Shown here: positions 16,331 to 62,104 of the stretch, in pieces | Position numbering within the stretch: the first letter of the stretch is position 1 | Layout of the letters: each line of letters opens with the position of its first letter | NCBI GenBank assembly: GCA_016169945.1 | Contig: JADLSH010000289.1 | Location: 1-64,000, forward strand | Length of the DNA: 64,000 nucleotides | DNA from: Trachythela sp. YZ-2020 | Lineage: Eukaryota > Cnidaria > Anthozoa > Malacalcyonacea > Clavulariidae | Direction: 5' to 3' | Notes under the pieces: generated by a model | Database searches by the model: none | The model's input: the letters and a program-made list of their open reading frames with translations, nothing else | Told to the model about the DNA's origin: nothing | Made by a program: the position numbers and the translations under genes

Positions 16331-17368
16331 TGCTACGGCTGCTACGGCTGCTACGGCTGCTACGGCTGCTACGCTTGCTACGCTTGCTACGCTTGCTACG
16401 GCTGCTACGGCTGCTACGGCTGCTACGGCTGCTACGCTTGCTACGGCTGCTACGCTTGCTACGGCTGCTACGGCTGCTACGCTTGCTACGGCTGCTACGC
16501 TTGCTACGGCTGCTACGCTTGCTACGGCTGCTACGCTTGCTACGGCTGCTACGCTTGCTACGGCTGCTACGCTTGCTACGGCTGCTACGCTTGCTACGGC
16601 TGCTACGCTTGCTACGGCTGCTACGCTTGCTACGGCTGCTACGCTTGCTACGGCTGCTACGCTTGCTGCGGCTGCGACGCTTGCTACGGCTGCTTCGCTT
16701 GCTACGGCTGCTGCGCTTGCTACGGCTGCTACGCTGCTGCGGCTGCTACGGCTGCTGCGCTTGCTACGGCTGCTACGCTTGCTACGGCTGCTACGCGCTG
16801 CGGCTGCTACGCTGCGGCTGCTACGGCTGCTACGGCTGCTACGCTTGCTGCGGCTGCTACGCTTGCTACGGCTGCTACGCTTGCTGCGGCTGCTACGCTT
16901 GCTACGGCTGCTACGCTTGCTACGGCTGCTACGGCTGCTACGCTTGCTACGGCTGCTACACTTGCTACGGCTGCTACGCTTGCTACGGCTGCTACACTTG
17001 CTACGGCTGCTACGCTTGCTACGGCTGCTACGCTTGCTACGGCTGCTACGCTTGCTACGGCTGCTACGGCTGCTACGCTTGCTACGGCTGCTACACTTGC
17101 TACGGCTGCTACGCTTGCTACTGCTGCTACACTTGCTACGGCTGCTACGCTTGCTACGGCTGCTACGCTTGCTACGGCTGCTACGCTTGCTACGGCTGCT
17201 ACGGCTGCTACGCTTGCTACGGCTGCTACGCTTGCTACGGCTGCTACACTTGCTACGGCTGCTATGCTTGCTACGGCTGCTACGCTTGCTACGGCTGCTA
17301 CGCTTGCTACGGCTGCTACGCTTGCTACACTTGCTACGGCTGCTACGCTTGCTACGGCTGCTACGCTT
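16331..17368. repeat. 18-bp GC-rich satellite (GCTACGCTTGCTACGGCT)n
   Basis: More than 1 kb of a 9/18-bp repeat. Because the period is a multiple of three and lacks stops in most frames, long artificial reading frames appear on both strands (Arg-Ser-Lys, Ala-Val-Ser or Leu-Arg repeats). Nothing marks them as genes. GC content contrasts sharply with the flanks. Higher-order alternation of GCTACGGCT and GCTACGCTT is irregular. Confidence 0.95.
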
Positions 17369-17645
17369 AGGCCTGCTCTGGGACCTCAACTCGCCTTAAC
17401 TCGCCTTAAATCGCATCGGTTAAAAGTCCCAATTTTCCTTAAATCGCCTTAAATCGCCTTAACTCGCCTTAACTCGCAATATCGCCTTAAGTCGCCTTAA
17501 ATCGCCTTAAATCGCCTTAAATCGCCTTAACTCGCATTGCTTAAAGTCGCAGTTTTTCCTTAAATCGCCTTAAATCGCCTTAACTCGCCTTAACTCGCAT
17601 TATCTCGCGGCGAGTTAAGGCGAGTTACCGTCCCAGAGCAGGCCT
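17369..17645. mobile_element. 277-bp inverted-repeat element inserted in the satellite
   Basis: The ends AGGCCTGCTCTGGGAC and GTCCCAGAGCAGGCCT are perfect inverted repeats, extended by AACTCGCCTTAACTCGCC and its complement. The 6-bp sequence ACGCTT flanks both sides (17363-17368 and 17646-17651), consistent with a target duplication, although the satellite context makes chance matching easier. The interior is a 10-bp tandem array of TTAAATCGCC. Confidence 0.75.
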
Positions 17646-17756
17646 ACGCTTGCTACGGCTGCTACGCTTGCTACGGCTGCTACGCTTGCTACGGCTGCTA
17701 CGCTTGCTACGGCTGCTACGCTTGCTACGGCTGCTACGCTTGCTACGGCTGCTACT
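17646..17756. repeat. Continuation of the 18-bp satellite
   Basis: The same GCTACGCTTGCTACGGCT unit resumes to the right of the inserted element and ends at about 17756. Confidence 0.95.
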
Positions 17757-20200: not shown

Positions 20201-20333
20201 CCTCTTTTGTTAGGCCTATACTATTTATAGGTTCATTTTTACTGGTTTAAGTGGTTTTAGACTTGTAACTGGTATAAGTTACAGAAATCCTTGCAATTTC
20301 CTTTACTTTTTGTATTTTTCCTTGCCATTTCCT

Positions 20334-20444
20334 GGTTACAATTCCATGACACGCACGAAATAGGGTTAGGGTTAGGGATTGGGTCGGGATTGGGGTCAAG
20401 ATCAAAGAGAAATATTCGTGATTGCGTGTCATGGAATTATAACC
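20334..20444. mobile_element. 111-bp non-autonomous element, same termini as the 9.6-kb element
   Basis: It starts GGTTACAATTCCATGACACG and ends with the reverse complement form TGTCATGGAATTATAACC. A perfect 8-bp duplication CATTTCCT flanks it (20326-20333 and 20445-20452). The first 22 bases match the terminus of the 44.4-53.98 kb element with one difference. The interior holds GGGTTAGGGTTAGGG, telomere-like. It is too small to code and was presumably moved by a transposase supplied elsewhere. Confidence 0.85.
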
Positions 20445-20679
20445 CATTTCCTTGTAAAACTCATTTCCTTGCATTTTCCTTGCAAGGACCAATATTTCCT
20501 TGCTGCAGGGAAAAATCCTTGCAAGTGGAAGCACTGCATCAGTGCCCAGCACTGAACTATTAGAGTTCACTGGTGCCCAGTTACCCTGTAGGTGTTCACT
20601 TGTTTCCATCTTTCAAACTGACGTTACGCAATTTTCCCGATTTTCAAAGATTTTCATATTCGTTTTTCTTCATCAATTT

Positions 20680-44388: not shown

Positions 44389-44396
44389 CCAAAAGT

Positions 44397-44507
44397 GGTT
44401 ATAATTCCATGACACGCAATCACCAAATACATTATCATAATTAGGTATATAATATATGCCATATAGGCATTACTAATATAGATATACATAGCTATAGTAC
44501 TATGGTT
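44397..44507 (+). repeat. Left terminal inverted repeat of the 9.58-kb element
   Basis: About 110 bp unique sequence before the minisatellite, including AATTAGGTATATAATATATG. It pairs with 53869-53979. Confidence 0.88.
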
Positions 44508-44570
44508 CTATAGTTCTATGGTTCTGTAGTTCTATGGTTCTATGGTTCTATAGTTCTGTGGTTCTATTTA
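44508..44570. repeat. TTCTATGGT minisatellite, left array part 1
   Basis: 9-bp units TTCTATGGT with TTCTATAGT and TTCTGTGGT variants. Interrupted by the hairpin element at 44572. Confidence 0.95.
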
Positions 44571-44571
44571 A

Positions 44572-45294
44572 CAATTAGTCGCCGAAGGCGAGGTGATTAC
44601 AAGCCTATAGTCACTGAGCCGAAGGCGAAGTGACTATAGGCTTGTAATCACCGAGCCTGAGGCGACTAATTGTTTTAGTAGAAATTTCAAAGAGAAAAAC
44701 AAACACAGAAAGTTATGAGGTCAGTTGAAAAGGCTATAGGACAAAATTCAGCGCTTTTCTGAGAGGCCGGTTATTAAAAACATGTCGGCAAAAGACGAGT
44801 GTCGAAAACATATCGAAGCGAAACAAAAACAAACAATTTCATGAGAAAAATACTTTGGAAAGGCTCAAATACAAAGTAGAATGGTTTTAAAAATATATCA
44901 CAGCTAGGTTTTTGCTGAATATAACGATATAAATGAGGATAAAACGAATAATTTTCAAAATAAACACTTGTGGTTGAGCCGTACGGAAAAAGTTTTATAC
45001 ATGTTCATTTCAACAGCGAGAAAACGTTGCCTTTCATGGAAGAAAAATAGTGTATCGCTTACCTTTAAAAATGTCAAAAATATATCCTCCTTTAATTTAG
45101 CGGCAGTTTTTTTCATTTAAAACTTTGAATCAGGCTCAAAAAAACGATTTTGTTTTAAATTCGGCAGCTTGCGAAGAAGCCATTTTGAAAAAAAAAGTGA
45201 TAGTCACTGACCAGTGACTATCACTTTTTAGAGGCTCAATTTGGACCAATCAGAATGCAGGAAAATCGATAGTCACCTGGAAATTTCTACTAAT
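44572..45294. mobile_element. Hairpin-headed element, copy inside the minisatellite (1)
   Basis: Starts with a palindrome of about 105 bp (TTAGTCGCCGAAGGCGAGG, its mirror CCTGAGGCGACTAA). Then TAGTAGAAATTTC (44683) and, at the far end, GAAATTTCTACTA (45282-45294) form short inverted ends. Near the right end are a perfect hairpin AGTGATAGTCACTG/CAGTGACTATCACT and ACCAATCAG. No coding frame. Confidence 0.75.
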
Positions 45295-45588
45295 GTTCTA
45301 TAGTTCTATGGTTCTATGGTTCTATAGTTCTATGGTTCTATGGTTCTATAGTTCTATGGTTCTATGGTTCTGTAGTTCTATGGTTCTATGGTTCTATGGT
45401 TCTGTGGTTCTATGGTTCTATGGTTCTATAGTTCTATGGTTCTATGGTTCTATGGTTCTATGGTTCTATAGTTCTGTGGTTCTATGGTTCTATGGTTCTA
45501 TAGTTCTATGGTTCTATGGTTCTATAGTTCTATGGTTCTACGGTTCTACGGTTCTACGGTTCTATGGTTCTATGGTTCTATGGTTCTA
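45295..45588. repeat. TTCTATGGT minisatellite, left array part 2
   Basis: Same 9-bp unit in the same orientation, between the two hairpin elements. Confidence 0.95.
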
Positions 45589-45591
45589 TTT

Positions 45592-46318
45592 AACAATTAG
45601 TCGCCGAAGGCGAGGTGATTACAAGCCTATAGTCACTGAGCCGAAGGCTGAGGCTGCACTAGTTGTAATCTGGTTCTAGTAGTTTTAATTGTTTTAGTAG
45701 AAAAACAAAAGAACAAAAACACAGAAAGTTATGAGGTCAGTTGAAAAGGCTATAGGACAAAATTCAGCGCTTTTCTCAGCGGCCGGTTGTTAAAAACATG
45801 TCGGCAAAAGACGAGTGTCAAAAACATATCGAAGCGAAACAAAAACAAACAATTTCGTGAGAAAAATACTTTGGAAAGGCTCAAATACAAAGTAGAATGG
45901 TTTTAAAAATATATCACAGCTAGGTTTTTGCTGAATATAACGATATAAATGAGGATAAAACGAATAATTTTCAAAATAAACACTTGTGGTTGAGCCGTAC
46001 GGAAAAGGTTTTATACATGTTCATTTCAACAGCGCGGAGAAAACGCTGCCTTTCATCGAAGAAAAATAGTGTATTTGTTATCGCTTACCTTTAAAAATGT
46101 CAAAAATATATCCTCCTTGAATTCAGCGGCAGTTTTTTTCATTTAAAACTTTGAATCAGGCTCAAAAAAACGATTTTTGTTTTAAATTCGGCAGCTTGCG
46201 AAGAAGCCATTTTGAAAAAAAAGTGATAGTCACTGACCAGTGACTATCACTTTTTAGAGGCTCAATTTGGACCAATCAGCATGCAGGAAAATCGATAGTC
46301 ACCTGGAAATTTCTACTA
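45592..46318. mobile_element. Hairpin-headed element, copy inside the minisatellite (2)
   Basis: Near-identical to 44572-45294 over most of its length (for example CGTACGGAAAA, AGCGGCAGTTTTTTTC). The second half of its leading palindrome has been replaced by a rearranged stretch (45645-45695). Because minisatellite plus element is repeated as a unit, the pair could have arisen by tandem duplication as well as by two insertions. Confidence 0.75.
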
Positions 46319-46622
46319 AAGTTCCATAGTTCTATAGTTCTATAGTTCTATGGTTCTATGGTTCTATAGTTCTATGGTTCTATGGTTCTATGGTTCTATG
46401 GTTCTATAGTTCTGTGGTTCTATGGTTCTATAGTTCTATGGTTCTATGGTTCTATGGTTCTATGGTTCTATGGTTCTATGGTTCTATGGTTCTATAGTTC
46501 TGTGGTTCTATGGTTCTATAGTTCTATGGTTCTATGGTTCTATGGTTCTATGGTTCTATGGTTCTATGGTTCTATGGTTCTATGGTTCTATGGTTCTATG
46601 GTTCTATGGTTCTATGGTTCTA
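46319..46622. repeat. TTCTATGGT minisatellite, left array part 3
   Basis: Continues the array up to the mariner-like palindrome. Confidence 0.95.
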
Positions 46623-46624
46623 TA

Positions 46625-46946
46625 CAGGGTGTATAAAAAAAACTGCAAATACCATAATTTGTATGCACGAGATCATACATTAGAATTTCAATGGCTGTGC
46701 AAATAATTACGCTTCTGCGATTTGAAAATACGTTTCCACGTGCAGTACTATCAAAATAAGCACACAAAGTGAATTAAAATTAGTTCGAACTCATAAGTTT
46801 AATTCACTTTGTGTGCTTGTTTTGATACCCCTGGGAAACGTATTTTCAAATCCCAGAAGCGTAATTATTTGCACAGCCATTGAAATTCTAATGTATGATC
46901 TCGTGCATACAAATTATGGTATTTGCAGTTTTTTTGATACACCCTG
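46625..46946. mobile_element. Palindromic mariner-like element in a TA site
   Basis: CAGGGTGTATAAAAAAAACTG begins the left arm and its reverse complement ends the right arm, with TA on each side (46623-46624 and 46947-46948). The arms are about 160 bp each and nearly perfect, so the whole 322 bp can fold back. TA duplication and a CAGGGTG-type start fit Tc1/mariner-type non-autonomous elements. It is inserted in the minisatellite. Confidence 0.85.
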
Positions 46947-46948
46947 TA

Positions 46949-47932
46949 GTTCTATAGTTCTATGGTTCTATAGTTCTATGGTTCTATGGTTCTGTAGTTC
47001 TATGGTTCTATGGTTCTATAGTTCTATGGTTCTATAGTTCTATGGTTCTATGGTTCTGTAGTTCTATGGTTCTATAGTTCTATGGTTCTATGGTTCCTTG
47101 GTTCTATGGTTCTATGGTTCTATAGTTCTGTAGTTCTATAGTTCTATAGTTCTATGGTTCTATGGTTCTATGGTTCTATGGTTCTATAGTTCTATGGTTC
47201 TGTAGTTCCATGGTTCTATGGTTCTATGGTTCTATGGTTCTATGGTTCTATGGTTCTATGGTTCTATGTTCTATGGTTCAATGGTTCTATAGTTCTATGG
47301 TTCTATGGTTCTGCAGTTCTATGGTTCTATGGTTCTATGGTCCTATGGTTCTATGGTTCTATGGTTCTATGGTTCTATGGTTCTATGGTTCTTTGGTTCT
47401 ATGGTTCTATGGTTCTATGGTTCTATGGTTCTATGGTTCTATGGTTCTATGGTTCTATGGCTCTATGGTTCTATGGTTCTATGTTTCTATGGTTCTGTAG
47501 TTCTATGGTTCTATGGTTCTATAGTTCTGTGGTTCTATGGTTCTATGGTTCTGTGGTTCTATGGTTCTATGGTTCTCTAGTTCTATAGTTCTATAGTTCT
47601 ATGGTTCTATAGTTCTATGGTTCTATAGTTCTATAGTTCTACAGTTCTATGGTTCTATGGTTCTATGGTTCTATGTTCTATGGTTCTATGGTTCTATGGT
47701 TCTGTAGTTCTATGGTTCTATGGTTCTATAGTTCTATGGTTCTATGGTTGTATGGTTCTATGGTTCTATAGTTCTATAGTTCTATGGGTCTATGGTTCTA
47801 TGGTTCTATGGTTCTATGGTTCTATGGTTCTATGGTTCTATGGTTCTATGGTTCTATAGTTCTATGGTTCTACAGTTCTATGGTTCTATGGTTCTATGGT
47901 TCTATAGTTCTATGGTTCTACAGTTCTATGGT
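46949..47932. repeat. TTCTATGGT minisatellite, left array part 4
   Basis: Nearly 1 kb of the 9-bp unit. It reads as repeated Phe-Tyr-Gly-Ser-Met-Val-Leu-Trp in all frames of one strand; these frames are artefacts of the period. Confidence 0.95.
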
Positions 47933-48143
47933 GCTCTCTCATCAGGTGTAACATACTATCAGCTAACCTAGGTCTTATTGATACTCATCGACTATGCGTT
48001 CCTTAGTAAAAGTCTGCCTCCGTGGCGGCATTTATTAGCAAGTTCATTCTTACTGTTCAATGAGCACATGTGGAGTTTACATATAATAAAAACTTTTCAG
48101 TTATGCATAAATTGCATCGTTTCCTATCATTTACCGGCAGGCT
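47933..48143. other. Unique spacer
   Basis: No feature recognised between the minisatellite and the first Penelope-like fragment. Confidence 0.4.
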
Positions 48144-48700
48144 TTGAATAAAAGCGGATACATGCAGCTACACCCTGAAATACGAAAAGCAACACGAAGA
48201 AAGACAACAGAAAAGAAAAAAATATGTCACGCAAATAATATAACCTGGTACATCCCACCCTCCAGTAAGCAGGTACCAACCAATGTAGGACAAAGCTTTT
48301 TAACAATTGTCAAGGGAGGATTTGCGAGCGCTCACCTTCTGAGGTAAATTTTTAATAAGAATACTCTGAAACTAAGTTATTCATGCATGCCTATAATCTA
48401 CGAAGAAAGATTAGTAGACACAATAAATCGATCCTCCAGAAGAGTCAAGGGAATATCAACAACCAGCAAGCGTGCAATTGCATCTCATCACCAATTTGTT
48501 TTACGAAGCTACGGTAGAGACCGGCACAACTAAGGAAACCTATATCGGATTGACGCAAAACAAATTGAAAACCAGGTACAGCAACCACCTGGCGTCATTT
48601 AAAGACAGAAACAATATGCACGCGACACAGCTGAGCAAATACATTTGGGTTTTGAAGGACAAACGCATTCGTTTCAAATTAGCATATATATATATATATA
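48144..48700 (+). pseudogene. Penelope-like element fragment (linker and GIY-YIG part)
   Basis: Two frames: NNITWYIPPSSKQVPTNVGQ, then after a break EATVETGTTKETYIGLTQNK and SNHLASFKDRN, HATQLSKYIWVLKDK. These match in order the linker and GIY-YIG endonuclease of the fuller copy at 49.6-50.5 kb. Several stops separate them. It ends at a TA microsatellite (about 48685-48702). Confidence 0.7.
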
Positions 48701-48721
48701 TAGATTTTCGCTTACCTCAAA

Positions 48722-48777
48722 ACTTGACTGCAACAGGCTGTTTCATCTGTAAAAGAATCATCAGGCAGTTTACAAGT
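48722..48777 (-). ncRNA. Hammerhead ribozyme motif, minus strand
   Basis: On the minus strand ACTTG-TAA-ACTGC forms stem I with GCAGT-CAAGT around the core CTGATGA...GAAA, with a two-base-pair stem III (CA/TG) and cleavage expected after CTGTT. Stem II (TTC/GAT) is weak, with one mismatch. Penelope-like elements are known to carry hammerheads in their terminal repeats. The orientation is opposite to the coding strand around it. Confidence 0.7.
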
Positions 48778-48905
48778 ATCGAAAGAAATGACCGCTTATA
48801 TGCTTATATGTTCCGAGTGATCATCTACCGACACGTTATTATAAATGGCACCGACGTGCGCCTCTGCATTGGTGCCAGTATTGTTGATGAATGGTTATCT
48901 GATGC

Positions 48906-50503
48906 TCTCGATTAATTAATCCCGCTAAAAGCGAATCCGGAAAACTAAGCAAAGTTATTTTGGACAAAATTAATTTCAATTTGAGAGAAAAACTGAATTT
49001 AAATCAATGGAGGAATACAAAACAAGTTATTCAGTGGTTTGGCAATATAAAAGATAAGGACAGACACAGTTTTATTTCGTTTGACATTGTCGATTTCTAC
49101 CCATCTATTTCTGAAAAACTATTGGACCAAGCTTTATCTTGGGCTTCAAATTTGACTACTATACCTGAAAACGATATTTCAATAATAAAACACGCTAGAA
49201 AATCTCTCCTTTTCAATACCGGAATTTCATGGATAAAAAAAGATAGCCATAGTTTGTTTGACGTTAGCATGGGCAGTTTCGACGGCGCGGAAATTTGTGA
49301 GTTAGTAGGCCTTTTCATTTTAAACCACCTGAGTAAGAAATTTGGCAAAGAAAGCATCGGCCTATATAGAGATGACGGTTTGGCTATTATAAAAGTAAAT
49401 CAGCACGTTTAGCAGACAAAACAAGAAAAGATCTCCACAAAATTTTCGAGCAGTTTGACCTAAAAATTACCGCCGAATCAAATTTACGCATTGTAAACTT
49501 TTTAGATGTAACTTTCGACCTTAACAATGGAAAACATAGGCCCTATAGGAAGCCCAATGACGATCCACTATACATAAATATGCACTCTAATCACCCACCG
49601 AGCATCTCAAGGCAACTACCTGCATCAATTAACAAGCGCATCGCACTCCTTTCATCAGATGAGCAAACTTTTCAGGAATCTGCACCCATATATCAGAACG
49701 CACTTAGGCATAGCAACTTTAATCATGAACTTAGCTACACTCAGCACACACCGCAAAAACAACGCAGGAATAGGCAACGCAACATCATTTGGTTCAACCC
49801 ACCATTTAGCAAGAGTGTTAGCACAAACATGGGACGTAATTTCCTTAGTCTAATTGACAAGCATTTTCCACCGCACCGCAAGCTACATAAAATTTTTAAC
49901 AGAAATACAGTTAAAGTAAGCTATAGCTGCATGAACAATATTAAGTCAGTAATCACTAAACACAATGCACGCATATCTAGAAATAACAAGCCACAGGAGA
50001 GGGACACTACCAATTGCAGTTGTAGAAAAAACACCATTTGCCCGCTTCAAAAACAATGCATGACTAGGGACATAGTATACAAAGCAACAGTCACAGTAAG
50101 CAACACAAACACGATCAAAAATTACATTGGCATGACTGCAACCACATTCAAAGAGCGATTGGCCAACCACACTAAATCTTTTCAGCATCAAAAGCATGCA
50201 AATGACACGGAACTTTCGAAATATATTTGGACATTGAAAGAAAACAATAAGGATTTCAGTATTAATTGGCAAATTTTAAAACATTCTATTTCGTATACGG
50301 GAGGATCAAAACGATGCAATTTATGTTTAGAAGAAAAATTTTGTATTTTGAAAGAAAAAACAGGATTGTTTACTCAACAAAGAGCTGAAATAATTTCACG
50401 ATGTCGTCATCGTAACAAATTTCGCGTAAACAACGCAAACAAAGCCATGCATGCACACATTGTCTCCCACACACACCCCCACGCCCCGGCAGGAAGCATA
50501 TAA
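48906..50503 (+). pseudogene. Penelope-like element: reverse transcriptase and GIY-YIG endonuclease
   Basis: The reverse transcriptase begins already truncated (INPAKSESGKL), then has FISFDIVDFYPSISEKLL (motif A), FDVSMGSFDGAEICELVG and LYRDDGLAI (motif C, YRDD). A single frameshift near 49398 moves the frame, which then stays open to 50503: RLADKTRKDLHKIF, ITAESNLRIVNFLDVTFDL, a zinc-like CSC-CPL-C cluster (about 50020-50060) and the endonuclease (YIGMTATTFKERLANH, TELSKYIWTLKENN, RCNLCLEEKFCIL). The C-terminal position of the nuclease marks a canonical Penelope-like element. Only the frameshift and the 5' truncation are seen as damage. Confidence 0.88.
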
Positions 50504-50521
50504 GCGGTCATTTCTTTCGAT

Positions 50522-50577
50522 ACTTGTAAACTGCCTGATGAATCTTTTACAGATGAAACAGCCTGTTGCAGTCAAGT
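50522..50577 (+). ncRNA. Hammerhead ribozyme, plus strand, intact
   Basis: Stem I: ACTTG (50522) and ACTGC (50530) pair with GCAGT (50568) and CAAGT (50573). Core CTGATGA at 50535-50541. Stem II ATC/GAT closes a 7-base loop. GAAA at 50555-50558. Stem III is CA/TG with a three-base loop. Expected self-cleavage is after T50567. All conserved positions are present. It follows the endonuclease stop by 19 bases, in the 3' terminal repeat of the Penelope-like element. Confidence 0.82.
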
Positions 50578-50639
50578 TTTGAGGTAAGCGAAAATCTATA
50601 ATTTGCTCTAACTATATGTTGTCGAGCACTCTTTGCGCT

Positions 50640-50700
50640 TCGTAGACCTAAACCTACACGTATATATATATATATATATATATTGACGAAGCAAATGCTT
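50640..50700. repeat. TA microsatellite
   Basis: A TA run at about 50661-50684 lies in the Penelope 3' region. Confidence 0.7.
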
Positions 50701-50751
50701 GGCGGTATTCACTTTAGTCCAAGAGTGCTCAACACGAACAGTGGAGCGAAC

Positions 50752-50870
50752 TATATACAGTTAATATTTACAAATAAAAATACTGTTACTCGAGTTTTCA
50801 TGGTCCCCAACGCGACGTGAGACTTGAGTAACAGTATTTTTATTTATAAATATTCCATTTTAACTGTATA
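50752..50870. repeat. Inverted repeat, arms about 45 bp
   Basis: AAAAATACTGTTACTCGAGT and ACTTGAGTAACAGTATTTTT pair around a 26-base spacer; the outer parts (CAGTTAATATT/AATATTCCATTTTAACTG) pair with a small bulge. It may be part of a Penelope terminal repeat. Downstream, GCCGTTCAACGGC (about 50942) is a further small palindrome. Confidence 0.65.
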
Positions 50871-51225
50871 TATATACATGCATATCTGCAGATCGAAATA
50901 TATATATATATATAGTCAAATCTGCAGACATGCATGTTTCGCCGTTCAACGGCTCGTCAGTGCAGCTTGTAACGCAGTCTAGATGCGAGTGACTTCGTAT
51001 TTATACACCATACTCTTGCCCTCACCAAGCGCATGTGGTACAATACTCAGACACATGCGCATCCAGACATGCGTGAAGTGTCTTGGGGCCAGAGTGCTCA
51101 AACGACCACAAGGGAAGTGAGCTTTTGCATTATAGCTTATAGCCACCAATTAACCTCACAGAGTGCTCAACGACACAAGTGAAGGAGCATATAGTCAAGT
51201 GAAGGAGCATATATATTTTCGCTTA

Positions 51226-51345
51226 CCTCAAAACTTGTCTGCAACAGGCTGTTTCATTTGTAAAAGAATCATCAGAAACTGCCTGATGATTCTTTTACCG
51301 ATGAAACAGCCTGTTTCTGTGTACCAAGATAGCAGACAAGTTTTG
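51226..51345. ncRNA. Two hammerhead motifs fused head to head, both incomplete
   Basis: The minus strand has CTGATGA (51275-51269), GAAA and stem I 3' strand GCAGACAAGT, but its 5' stem I strand is gone. The plus strand has CTGATGA (51283-51289), GAAA (51303-51306), CAGCCTGTT and then 16 unrelated bases (51316-51331) before GCAGACAAGT. The extra 16 bases sit exactly at the expected cleavage point. Both motifs share the short join at 51276-51282. Neither should fold into an active ribozyme. Confidence 0.7.
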
Positions 51346-52663
51346 AGGTAAAAACAAGTTTTGGTATGAAAATTCTATAATTTGCTCTAACTATATGTTG
51401 TCGAGCACTCTTTGCGTTTCGTAGACCTAAATTGCAAAATAACTGAATAATTGCAAAATAACTGAATAATAACTTTGAAGAACATTTATTGAATTGAATT
51501 GAAGACTTAACGTGCTAAGGCTAATAAACAAGAGAAATAAAGAGTTTTATTCATTTTTATATAATCATTTTTACATAGTTCTATTAATAAAATTTGCTTA
51601 TTTTTTCGTTTATATATATGATGGCTAGCTAACTCAGCAGTTGTCTGCTCGACGTCTTTTCGGTTCTGTTGGCACGTCTTTCTGGGATAGACCATCTCTT
51701 AAACGGGAGATTTCCCTGTTTTCTGGGAGATCTTGCAGGCCTATAAAAAGTCCAATGTAGAAATTATATTACATGAAATTCATATCCATGTTGACATTCT
51801 GATATTAAGAAGCATCTCACAATATTGAACAAAGCACACAATCACAGACCGAAGGTCGTAGCACTATTCTGAGACTGATGAGTGGATGTAAACTGTAGCT
51901 AAATAATGCATTTCTTCGTCAGTCTGCATATAAATTTTTTTCGAAATATTACACAAAATTGCTTCGCTTTAATTAGGGTTAAGAATACACTGACTACTAT
52001 ATTGAGAAAGTAAATAGACAATCAAACCAAGGAACAATCAAATTGTAGTGGTGTTTAAATTAATTTTACTATCATACTAAGATAAAGGTTCACTTAGACT
52101 TTTAGCGAGGTTAAGAAAGTTTCAAACACTAGATCACGAGACTTCATATATAAAATAACTCGTATAACCGAGTTAAATTGGGACAATCTCGTAACAATAA
52201 GTCGCGTCTTACTCTACGTGTTAGTGTGTCAGTTGTCGCGAACTAATCGTACACCCTTTCCGATAATTGCATGGTTTTCAAAATTTCTCCGTGGTCCGGA
52301 AGCCTCATTCTAATCAATCGTGGGCAAATGGCCTTTGTCAGACCAACAAAGCATTCGTTACGTTAATATTAATACTAATAGAAAGGGTGTATGACCACTG
52401 ACGAAAACTGTTGCTTAAACATCTTAAGTGTTATCTAAGTTCTGTTGAGGGGAAGCTTGTATTTTTTTAATATGTTTATACATTTAATTTGACATCATCT
52501 AAGACATATATGCACTACTTATTACATATCTGCATGAGGAAAATCTATATTTACATGTTTGAAAGAAGCTTACAGACAAGGAAAAAGTCTATCATGCACC
52601 ATTATAGGCATGAACCATATTCAGTTTTTGAAATCTCTACGACTACATGTTTACTATAATAGT
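51346..52663. other. Interior of the 9.58-kb element, mostly unrecognised
   Basis: No transposase frame could be found. GTACACCCTTTC (about 52249) and GAAAGGGTGTATGAC (about 52380) form a small inverted pair. One possible minus-strand exon is listed separately. Confidence 0.4.
51634..51740 (-). CDS. Possible last exon with basic nuclear-signal-like motif
   Basis: After an acceptor-like TTTTTATAG (51741-51749) the minus strand reads LQDLPENREISRLRDGLSQK, DVPTEPKRRRADNC and stops. KRRR is nuclear-signal-like. It lies downstream of the C48 protease remnant on the same strand, so it could be that gene's last exon. This is inference only. Confidence 0.25.
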
Positions 52664-52689
52664 TTTTATAATGGGGTCCTTTTCGCGCT

Positions 52690-53245
52690 TACGTTTCATC
52701 TGATTTTTCAACGGGAATCAGACAATTTTTTGTTTTTCAAAACATTCCAAAAGGTGTGACCTCATCTTCTCTTGGTCATACGTGACACCTTCAGGTCGAT
52801 TCCATTTGCTAGCTCGAAAGCCCATGCGATAGCAAATATTCCGCAATCTACCGAACTTCTTTGATATTGGCATGGAACAATTTTTACTTCCAACACATTT
52901 TGTTTTGCGAAGTGTTTGTAAATGGAGATTAATTGAATTTCAGCGTCACTACTCACAGTGTCGTACACACTGTCAAACACTTCTCGAGCACGAAGTAATC
53001 CAGTGGTTAAAACGGACGTGGTGGATTTGAACTCCTTTGGCGTTTGAATCAATTGGAATAAACATATTCTTTTGGCACAATATTGTATTTTGAAAGCCTT
53101 GGATTAGAGGAAATTGTTTGGAAAGGATTTTTTGAGCAGCGTTAATGTGGATATCAGTTAGCATCTGTGGTGATTCAAGAATGGATTTGTCCTTTTCGCT
53201 CAAATTAAGAGAATGGATCCAGGAACTTGTATTATTATCTGCAAT
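52690..53245 (-). pseudogene. Ulp1/C48-type cysteine protease, frameshifted
   Basis: The minus strand reads LTDIHINAAQKILSKQFP, then VRFNHWITS (catalytic His in NHW), a frameshift, VFDSVYDTVSSDAEIQL (Asp), VPCQYQRSSVDCGIFAIAWA (Gln and catalytic Cys in DCGIF), another frameshift near 52790, and YDQEKMRSHLLECFEKQK before a stop. The order His-Asp-Gln-Cys is that of Ulp1-like proteases, which act on SUMO or related tags. The 5' part is cut by the minisatellite. Such genes occur in large transposons and as multicopy genes in cnidarians and sponges. The copy is inactive. Confidence 0.75.
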
Positions 53246-53247
53246 TC

Positions 53248-53868
53248 CATAGAACTATAGAACTATAGAACCATAGAACCATAGAACCATAGAACCATAG
53301 AACCATAGAACCATAGAACTATAGAACCATAGAACCATAGAACCATAGAACCATAGAACCATAGAACCATAGAACCATAGAACCATAGAACCAAAGAACC
53401 ATAGAACTATAGAACCATAGAACTATAGAACCATAAAACTATAGAACCATAGAACCATAGAACCATAGAACCATAGAACCACAGAACCATAGAACCATAG
53501 AACCATAGAACTATAGAACCATAGAACCATAGAACCATAGAACCATAGAACCATAGAACCATAGAACCCTAGAACCATAGAACCGTAGAACCGTAGAACC
53601 ATAGAACTATAGAACCATAGACCCATAGAACCATAGAACTATAGAACCATAGAACCATAGAACCATAGAACCATAGAACCATAGAACCATAGAACTATAG
53701 AACCATAGAACCATAGAACCATAGAACTATAGAACCATAGAACCATAGAACCATAGAACTACAGAACCATAGAACCATAGAACCAGGGAACCATAGAACC
53801 ATAGAACCATAGAACTATAGAACCATAGAACCATAGAACCATAGAACCATAGAACCATAGAACTATAG
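53248..53868. repeat. Minisatellite, right array (reverse orientation)
   Basis: Units read ACCATAGAA on the plus strand, the reverse complement of the left arrays. About 620 bp, uninterrupted. Confidence 0.95.
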
Positions 53869-53979
53869 AACCATAGTACTATAGCTATGTATATCTATAT
53901 TAGTAATGCCTATATGGCATATATTATATACCTAATTATGATAATGTATTTGGTGATTGCGTGTCGTGGAATTATAACC
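53869..53979 (-). repeat. Right terminal inverted repeat of the 9.58-kb element
   Basis: Reverse complement of 44397-44507 with one clear difference (CGTGTCGTGG where the left end gives CGTGTCATGG). Confidence 0.88.
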
Positions 53980-53987
53980 CCAAAAGT

Positions 53988-58382: not shown

Positions 58383-61300
58383 ATGGACTTTAAAGTTCTC
58401 TTAATTCTTTATGTGATCGTCCAAGGAGTTCAAGGACAAGGTGAGAAATCATCACACGCTGTACTTTTAGACCCTTTCTAAAGGATGAATTAAGAACGGC
58501 AAAATTGCTTGATATTTTTCATGATGTAGAACAAAGCTGAAAGTATGGTGATTATTTATCGAGGGTAATTATTAACCTGACTGAAAAATAACAATTGACC
58601 CCCTCCCCTTTAAGATCTTCAAATTCCTAGTGACCCTCCCCTGTTTAAATGACATTTAAACACACTCCCTAAAGAAAATATTAGTATATGTTGTTATTTA
58701 GCAATAATTTAAATTAACAAACTCAAAACTTGGATAAACAAATAGCTGTAATTCAATGTAGGTAGTTCGTTTCAGGAAATAGCAGTTCTATAAGAAAAGC
58801 TTATTTTTAAGAAAATTTGTTTTGGGCTTTGGTAACGCTAACTTAGTATAGTTACTTCGTAGGTTGTGATTTGTGTTTTCACATATTATAAATAGCTGAT
58901 CAGATATATATTTCGGCAATTTTCCCGTTAACGCCTTGAACGTTACTATAATTTCACGGTTTTTTAATATCCTTTCCACCGGTAGCCAATTAAGATTAGC
59001 AAGTATTTCACTGGAACGAACATCATATGAATCACGCGTGCAGCTCTCCTTTGTAATTAGGATAATTTGGCAATGTGGGAGCTACACCCATATACATCGT
59101 AATTAGGTATTTTTGTATAACAAAAGATTTTGCTCTTCTTAACAGTGATATATTCTGTGTAATTTTCTTGCATTGTTCGTCAATGTGGTTATCAAATTTC
59201 AAGTGCTCATCGATGATAAGGCCAAGGGTTTTCTTGTATTTAACTATTTTTATGTTATACCCACCCAAGATAATTTTGGGGCTCTCATATGTACAATAAC
59301 ATTGATAGTTCAAAGTCAAATTAAATTTAAATTTCTACTTAAGATTATGTGTAATTGAAGTTAAGCACCCCACTTTTCATCAAGTTTTATCATAGTCATA
59401 TTTCTGGGACTAGGATTAGAATCTGAAATGTTCCGTTATGGCAAAGAGAGTTGTGAACTTCATTTGTATGCTATATTATCTTTTTACATTGCTAGTTTTA
59501 TTATGACATGGACATAACGTTTTGAGTTTCATATTGGTTGACTATTAAAATGTTAAATGAAAAGATTCTTCATAATAACGGTTAATGTACCTAATCTTTA
59601 AGTGAATTTAAACAAATTCCTGTTTTAAAGCAACAAAATGTCAAAGGACTTACTTTTGACCCCTCTCCCCTTAAATGGTATAATGAATGATAACCCTCCC
59701 ATTTTTTACCTTCAAACCTCCCTGAATAAATAATGACCGGTCTCTAAAATGAAGAGTACTGCGTAGGCAGTATAGTTAGAAAATTTAACATATCGAAAGG
59801 GATGCATTAAAACTGCCGGGAATTTAACTAACGGAATACTGACGTTTCGATTGGAACCCTTCATCAGAGTAGAATGTTAAAGTTAAAAAAAAGTAGAGCT
59901 ATATGTGGTCGCTGTTAATATATATGTGTTATTTCTGTATTTCTGCTCAGCATCTCTCTCTGATCTCATCTGACTCGTTTTCGCCTTGCTTTTATGCTTT
60001 CGCGCCTGGATACCTTTTACTACGTGATCATTCGTTTACTCCGTCCAATCGGCGTTTACCATGAGATGTGTCACGTCCGGTCGTTTTTTTCCACGCTCGT
60101 GCACATTTAACTTATTTAACTTACTTATTTTTACTTAAAATTTGTAAATGTTCATTTGAAAACTATGAACTATAAGTATATCATATTTATTTTGCAAACT
60201 AAAGCACTATTTCTGAGAAATGACCGAATAGAAAATCTACGTCATACGTTGAATATCTACAGTTGGCATTTAAAACTTCTGTACAGAAATCCTTGCAAAC
60301 TGTAGGATGCAAAGTGCAACGAAATTCGTGCACGCAAGGACACTTCTTCGTTTTGTGTTCTGTCATAAACCAAATACGGCATCTTTGTATTCATCACCTC
60401 CTGTCTTATTGTCCATTTATGTCAAAATCACTTACAACTGTTACGAAAAAAAATCGAAACGAACTACGAAGAACTGTTTTTAAAACTAAAGTTAAGTTTA
60501 CATGGTGACAACGTTTTACAGTTCATTAAAATAATTTGGACTTTACAAGAGAGCCGCAGAAAGTTGCATAACAATATGTTGACATATTGTTCTTTTCGAA
60601 ATTTATCAGATATGCTTAACATATGAAAAGGGTATTTTACAAACAATTTTTTCCAAATTTATGAGATATGTTTGATACAATATATGAAAAGGGTATTTTA
60701 CAAACACTCGTAGAACCTTTAACTCTCGCAAGTGGGGTGGAATATAGAAGAAAAAAATTCTCACTTTTTGCTGCATATTTAAAATCAAGTAAATTTAAGC
60801 CAGAAACTTCACTTATTTCTGTTTATCATGTAAAATCACGTATTCGACTAAGCTACCATTAATATTTTTCATCCGTGTGTCATGAAACTTTTGAGAAATA
60901 CAAATCAAAAGAAATAACAATGAGTGGTGTTCCTCAGGGATCAATACTGGAACCACTTCTATTTCTTTTGTATATTAATGACATAAAAATAGCTCGATAT
61001 TAAGACAGTACAGATGAAAATAGGTCAAGCGGATTTATAGTTTTTGAAATAATTTCATTCGTTCACAAACGACTGGCTATTAAATTATTTTTTTAATTGT
61101 ATATAGACATTCAACTTGGTAAGCCGTTCAGTATCCTACATGGCTTTAAGCCAGCATTCGCTAGAGCAGGTGATTTAAGCCGCGTATTTTACCCGGTTAA
61201 GAATGAAAATTTGTTCACCAACGTCAACAATGAAGTGGTCTCAACCAATCAGACTTTTTTTGGTCCCGACATCAAGCTAACCTACCACCCCGACTCATAT

Positions 61301-62104
61301 AATTTAATCCAAGAGTTTTTCTCGATGTGGCGTTTTGAAGAAGAGACTCGTGACGCCGCAGGATATATCTACACGGCAGAAAACACCACACTAACCTTAG
61401 CCACTCTTCTTGGAATATCTCCAGAAAACATGGTAGACAAAGCATACGTACTGGCACGTTATTGGAAGACTTTAAGTACCACAACTATGACCACAGGTGA
61501 TCTCGCAGATGTCACGTCGTCCGCCGTTTCGCCTAATGCAACCGCTGACAACATCACGAAACTGTTCGCGGAACACGGTACCCATTACCTTTCTGGTTAC
61601 GAGACGGGGGACATGATTTATCAAGTGTTCGTTTACGATACAGATGTTGGCGACGACCTTCAACAACATTACTTTCGAAATCGAGTCCTCTCCAGAGACG
61701 TCGACGTCGTCGCCTTCCGCCAATTCACCCAACAAAAGTCCGTAGGAACTAACGGATTCTGTCACGAAGCTGGCACGATTAAGTCCGCCAGTGGGGATGC
61801 AACTCTAGCAAGTATTATACTTCAATTGCACGACGACATCTACCGGGTTTCGCACAGTATCCTCATGTTTCTAACTTCACGCGAAAAATATGAACTTGCC
61901 GACCAGCTAAATACTACGATCCCCATAAGACTTTTCTTCAAACCCATTATCAACAAACTCATACCAGTAAATGCAACATCCAAATCAAAATGGAGCAAGG
62001 TACTGGCAGTCGTTGTTTTTCAGAAATTTGGCTCCGATAGTTTACCCGGCTTTCCCACCATTTACGACAATCACGAGGTATTTTCCATGAAACTTGTCGC
62101 GTAA
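58383..62104 (+). CDS. Secreted MACPF-domain (perforin-like) protein, two exons
   Basis: Exon 1 (58383-58440) encodes a 19-residue signal peptide (hydrophobic core VLLILYVIV) and ends at a donor (AAG|GTGAGA). Exon 2 (61107-62104) follows an acceptor (TGTATATAG), and the phases fit (one base plus two), giving 351 residues. The MACPF signature appears as FAEHGTHYLSGYETGD, with GTHY at about residue 177-180. Several N-glycosylation sites and very few cysteines are present. MACPF proteins insert into membranes; roles include immunity, development and venom, and which applies here is not shown. There is no EGF-like or other C-terminal module. No inactivating change is seen. The 2.67-kb intron contains LINE fragments. 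Confidence 0.8.
58788..59345 (-). pseudogene. LINE reverse transcriptase C-terminal fragment
   Basis: The minus strand reads KYKKTLGLIIDEHLKFDNHI, QNISLLRRAK (thumb), YLITMYMGVAPTLPN, and after breaks VTFKALTGKLPKYISDQL and ALPKPKTNFLKN. These match in order the thumb and C-terminus of LINE ORF2. No motif A-C remains. Confidence 0.7.
60905..61003 (+). pseudogene. LINE reverse transcriptase motif B fragment
   Basis: SGVPQGSILEPLLFLLYIND is the motif B region of a LINE reverse transcriptase. It ends in a stop after about 30 codons, and it lies about 100 bp before exon 2 of the MACPF gene. Confidence 0.7.

Follow-up and report, generated by a model that had tools for sequence, protein, structure and literature searches.

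The window analysed here, positions 1 to 64,000 of contig JADLSH010000289.1 (assembly GCA_016169945.1) of the anthozoan Trachythela sp. YZ-2020, contains an element of 9,583 bp (positions 44397-53979) which is very probably a defective copy of a foldback DNA transposon of Mutator/IS256 type. Its two ends are reverse complements with a single mismatch, at position 14, across the first 129 bp, and the octamer CCAAAAGT flanks them exactly on both sides; a sequence-only reading had proposed about one change in about 110 bp and an exact flanking duplication, and both hold. Directly inside both termini lie minisatellite arrays of opposite orientation, an arrangement which that reading had described correctly while giving a period of 9 bp; the measured period is 8, with the consensus GTTCTATG. 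This copy has no visible transposase, as also stated earlier, and keeps only the remnant, in two frames, of the Ulp1-like protease that had been claimed, together with a nested Penelope-like retroelement (table 1).

The search for further copies that the earlier reading had suggested was made in the host's own genome (578 Mb in 396 contigs, all counts being lower bounds) with the first 110 bp of the element. It gave at least 47 matches, which correspond to about 35 distinct ends because 11 ends are each represented by two overlapping matches and a further one is split. Duplications were scored in ten opposed-end pairs and in a second family copy of the window, only 111 bp long (positions 20334-20444, between duplications of CATTTCCT). 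Exact 8-bp duplications flank eight of the ten pairs, every octamer being different (CCAAAAGT, CGAATTAT, CACACAAG, CTAATTTA, GATCTCAG, AGAATCTT, GGAGTTAG, CACAATGT), and hence nine of eleven paired copies when the 111-bp copy is included. Such duplications at paired ends are far beyond chance, and an outcome that would have spoken against the earlier reading, a genome in which no other copy carries them, did not materialise.

Eight large copies, from 7.4 to 25.1 kb, reveal the organization of the family. The ends of the larger copies begin with GGTTATAATTCC. Two closely related subfamilies can be told apart among the end sequences, and six copies have in common additional duplications, of 9 and of about 30 bp, close to the end. 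Except in C191, the arrays of the eight large copies start at the ends and point inward. Array length varies freely: across the eight, the extremes for a single end are about 0.17 kb, in C191, and 14.7 kb, on the right side of C332 (two neighbouring pieces summed), and these differences account for much of the variation in copy size. Directly inside an array, all eight other copies compared have DNA 91-98% identical to the inner domain of the window copy, which is found at both ends in the C237 copy only. The plan is that of foldback elements: composite inverted ends formed by a flanking domain, tandem repeats in variable copy number and an inner domain. Copying from array to array within one element left no general sign, since in six of seven elements another element shares a longer exact string; only in the 13.5-kb copy of C283 do both arms find their best match in the longest exact string that they share (214 nt). 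Two pairs of ends share their flanks. L008 (C16) and L028 (C241) agree in flank and end, with 99.4% identity over 1.66 kb, and may be alternative haplotypes or a duplication; L023 and L026, lying 3 Mb apart on opposite strands of C110, have the same flank with 84% identity over 344 bp including the end, which suggests an old duplication or inversion.

Which enzyme could move such elements? A candidate transposase, which the earlier reading had proposed to seek by aligning other copies, is present in C282 as a single open frame of 1,055 codons and in partial form in C237, C22, C191 and others; two small length differences between the C282 form and those of C237 and C22 alter residues around one catalytic motif. 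The protein combines a cysteine-rich N terminus, a DDE RNase H core with a helical insertion, an OTU protease and a CXC domain. Its search in the own genome gave 79 matches, many at 29-56% identity; the close matches (84-100% identical, apart from one short C110 piece of 78%) lie, at seven of seven loci, in a family end or within 12 kb of one. In C237 and C191 it is accompanied by the Ulp1-like gene in divergent orientation, and the named relatives among its 120 listed homologues are cnidarian. A DUF3987 frame (2.5e-17) adjoins the transposase inside the C237 copy (L013 5206-6309).

Classification by profile search, also recommended earlier, was carried out with a Pfam scan of the own-genome transposase (P0003) and its 120 homologues, considering the best 25 of 38 and the best 25 of 42 families. 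The transposase family matches the models for IS256, ISL3 and, weakly, Mutator-like elements (MULEs). The core of a relative has as its best listed structural match the IS256-family transposase ISCth4, and the RNase H-like DDE core with helical insertion is of the IS256/MULE type; a eukaryotic MULE structure does not occur among the 50 structural matches listed, which is uninformative. The 8-bp duplications of the eight pairs and the 111-bp copy fall within the range of 8-11 bp given for MULEs (PMC6446971). The earlier reading was right in recognizing a DNA transposon whose ends are inverted and flanked by 8-bp duplications, but its filing under a Zisupton/KDZ-like lineage is very unlikely to be correct. 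Zisupton does make 8-bp duplications (PMC12730594), as found here, and the Ulp1-like gene and the large size of the element would also fit this affiliation; yet among the families listed for P0003 and its homologues there is no KDZ model, although a KDZ match of a single member may lie beyond the 25 considered in each list, whereas models for IS256, ISL3 and MULE are present, and the best listed structural match of the core is an IS256-family transposase, Zisupton having been weighed by description and models only.

The Ulp1-like protein (P0004) was studied in a profile set of 23 sequences, itself and 22 of its 28 homologues, only one of which has a species name, that of a mussel. The Ulp1 (C48) model is found in 9 of the 23 and a PHD finger in 10, P0004 itself passing no C48 threshold; against solved structures, the profile matches PHD fingers best (from 3.7e-9) and Ulp1/SENP proteases at 3e-5 to 2e-4. 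Residues D106, Q143, D148 and C149 are invariant in the alignment, and we take them to be the Ulp1 active site.

These PHD fingers bear on whether the family belongs to the Rehavkus group of Mutator elements, whose published features are inverted repeats of 26-400 bp, a PHD finger and a minisatellite preceding the 3' end (PMC6446971). A minisatellite near the end is present here as well, and the PHD fingers occur in the separate Ulp1-like protein and its relatives. Membership is nevertheless unlikely, given that the duplication is of 8 bp in nine of eleven copies instead of the 9 bp of Rehavkus, that arrays occupy both ends and not one, and that the transposase family carries OTU and CXC, with no PHD among its families listed in the Pfam scan, Rehavkus being weighed here by its published description.

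A different possibility is that another transposase moves the element and the OTU-CXC protein is a nested passenger in some copies. Nesting is common, since the copies contain nested retroelements and other genes. However, all seven loci with a close transposase lie in or near family ends, and the ends can be aligned with those of two distant families that carry a transposase of this kind, so that this alternative appears highly improbable. The two families come from three sister loci chosen among the 79 transposase matches and read over 17-18 kb each. In L038 (39% identity) the end is GGTTATAAGGCCATGTTAC, and a 2.2-kb array of GTTCTAGG/GTTCTGTA comes after it within 135 bp; in L039 (38%) the end is GGTTATAAGCCCATGTTAC, and the array, 124 bp long with an 8-bp unit (ATACTATG), comes within about 100 bp; and the 60-bp ends of both align by eye with those of the window element. 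In L037 (C332, 4.50 Mb; 36%) a 0.75-kb array of 9-bp units lies 85 bp inside GGTTATAA, but its membership is doubtful because its end resembles the family by GGTTATAA only. Arrays in two or three of three sister loci may mark a trait of the lineage, but the host genome is rich in arrays and the proportion calls for a wider survey.

Several observations weigh against the assignment to a Mutator/IS256-type foldback family. P0003 itself matched only ISLre2 (0.0043), and neither IS256 nor MULE; MULE matches are weak in its relatives (8 of 51 at E <= 10, best 0.0041) as well as in a second relative set (6 of 70 at E <= 0.1, best 8.5e-4); and the fold comparison was made with a relative's protein, not with the element's own. 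The short copies L022 and L025 have no duplication, the right end of L025 being just partly matched, and the C191 copy has short, rearranged arrays with one block turned round. Among the copies read none is shown with every part intact, and neither a partner end nor a duplication was found for L037, L038 and L039 in the stretches read. A Polinton or a virus was also considered and rejected, as no virus polymerase or capsid profile appeared in the scanned frames (6 + 10 frames, 51 homologues); a single poxvirus Bcl-2-like match in one of the 51 homologues (0.0026) is taken as chance.

In the window copy the left array consists of four blocks split by inserted DNA (table 1). Two of the inserts, each of about 0.73 kb, are copies of one another and are read as later insertions because none of the 12 other pieces with which they were compared gave a match; we read the palindromic miniature element likewise as a later insertion, and its end sequence ACAGGGTGTAT also breaks up the ends of the C191 and C185 copies. 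The nested frames beyond the inner domain presumably encode a reverse transcriptase and a GIY-YIG domain of Penelope-like kind; no convincing Pfam match was obtained for them. Elsewhere in the window, positions 16331-17755 comprise a CCTTAAATCG array enclosed by about 1.1 kb and 0.1 kb of repeats with a 9-bp unit (TGCTACGGC/TGCTACGCT), which may be a further element with arrays. Positions 61097-62104 contain an open frame that matches MACPF/perforin weakly (0.042) and for which six homologues were found.

Table 1. Features of the window element and of the second family copy
Feature	Positions	Strand	Basis
Second, 111-bp family copy with its duplications	20326..20452	.	
Left target-site duplication CCAAAAGT	44389..44396	.	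sequence comparison
Left terminal inverted repeat; final bases overlap start of 8-bp units	44397..44506	+	end alignment
8-bp array block 1 (GTTCTATG)	44497..44568	+	array mapping
Inserted DNA inside left array	44569..45293	.	
8-bp array block 2	45294..45590	+	array mapping
Second copy of the 44569-45293 insert (97% over 300 nt, 95% over 107 nt)	45591..46325	.	
8-bp array block 3	46326..46624	+	array mapping
Palindromic miniature element in left array, ends ACAGGGTGTAT..., TA both sides	46624..46948	.	sequence reading
8-bp array block 4	46947..47935	+	array mapping
Inner domain with Penelope-like remnant	47936..48700	+	comparison among copies
Nested Penelope-like retroelement frames	48903..50503	+	open frames
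Remaining core, common to C237, C283 (13.5 kb) and C191 copies	51431..53245	-	
Ulp1-like protease remnant, two frames	52646..53245	-	
Right 8-bp array	53246..53879	-	array mapping
Right terminal inverted repeat	53870..53979	-	end alignment
Right target-site duplication CCAAAAGT	53980..53987	.	sequence comparison

In functional terms, a complete member would consist, like the larger copies, of the ends, inward 8-bp arrays, the inner domain and two divergent genes, for the transposase and the Ulp1-like protease. The transposase would recognize the ends and join the element to a new site, leaving the 8-bp duplication, and movement could follow either the cut-and-paste route described for MULEs (PMC13359780) or the copy-out route of IS256, a family in which ISCth4 makes an 8-bp duplication (PMC7780238). 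Slippage or unequal exchange may alter the length of the arrays, which might also serve the transposase as additional binding sites, an idea put forward for Galileo (PMC4079207), and the OTU and Ulp1 domains may act on the transposition complex or on repair, as suggested for those of Ginger1 (PMC2836005). The window copy, because it lacks a transposase and carries nested insertions, would be movable only by the transposase of another copy. We would also offer, as a tentative idea that is rather less likely than not, an animal lineage of autonomous foldback Mutator transposons sharing the GGTTATAAnnCCATG end, in which an obligatory subterminal minisatellite of 8-9 bp would be the binding platform of the transposase, perhaps via CXC, and two protease domains would strip ubiquitin and SUMO from the transposition complex.

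The earlier reading knew of no described family with this layout; there is precedent in foldback elements, Tm1 above all. Tm1 of root-knot nematodes (Mutator/Foldback, PMC3169594) is the nearest published case seen: it has composite inverted ends with variable tandem repeats of 13-15 bp and an inner motif, and both non-autonomous members and members coding for a Mutator-type transposase. It differs in its mostly 9-bp duplications, its asymmetric 7-bp outer motifs and its Phantom-like transposase, and the available text of its description does not mention OTU-CXC. The nearest named Mutator group is Rehavkus (PMC6446971), with a minisatellite near the end, inverted repeats and a Mutator-type transposase, as against its 9-bp duplication, its PHD finger in the transposase and its minisatellite, which is described solely before the 3' end. 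From both, as they are described in the available portions of the sources, the present family would be separated by its 8-bp duplication and its OTU-CXC architecture. Tetris and other foldback elements share flanking, tandem-repeat and inner domains in their inverted ends and duplications of 8-10 bp, but the repeats of Tetris are of 220 bp and its authors found no coding copy (PMC4079207), some foldback elements being known only as non-autonomous copies. ISCth4 has the same transposase fold and 8-bp duplication but is bacterial, 1.5 kb long and equipped with one 47-kDa transposase, arrays not being mentioned in the available text (PMC7780238); Ginger1 has transposases with a C-terminal OTU or Ulp1 domain, some in Hydra, but with a core of Gypsy-integrase type and 4-bp targets (PMC2836005). 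No description of an OTU-CXC Mutator transposase or of the present family was found in the open-licence literature searched, Repbase not being covered. The family illustrates the fusion of a DDE transposase with deubiquitinase-like and CXC domains, and its minisatellites extend over kilobases, reaching 14.7 kb at one end. Ends, arrays and a candidate transposase are combined in this one family, and probably in relatives too, which makes it directly testable whether transposition requires the subterminal tandem repeats.
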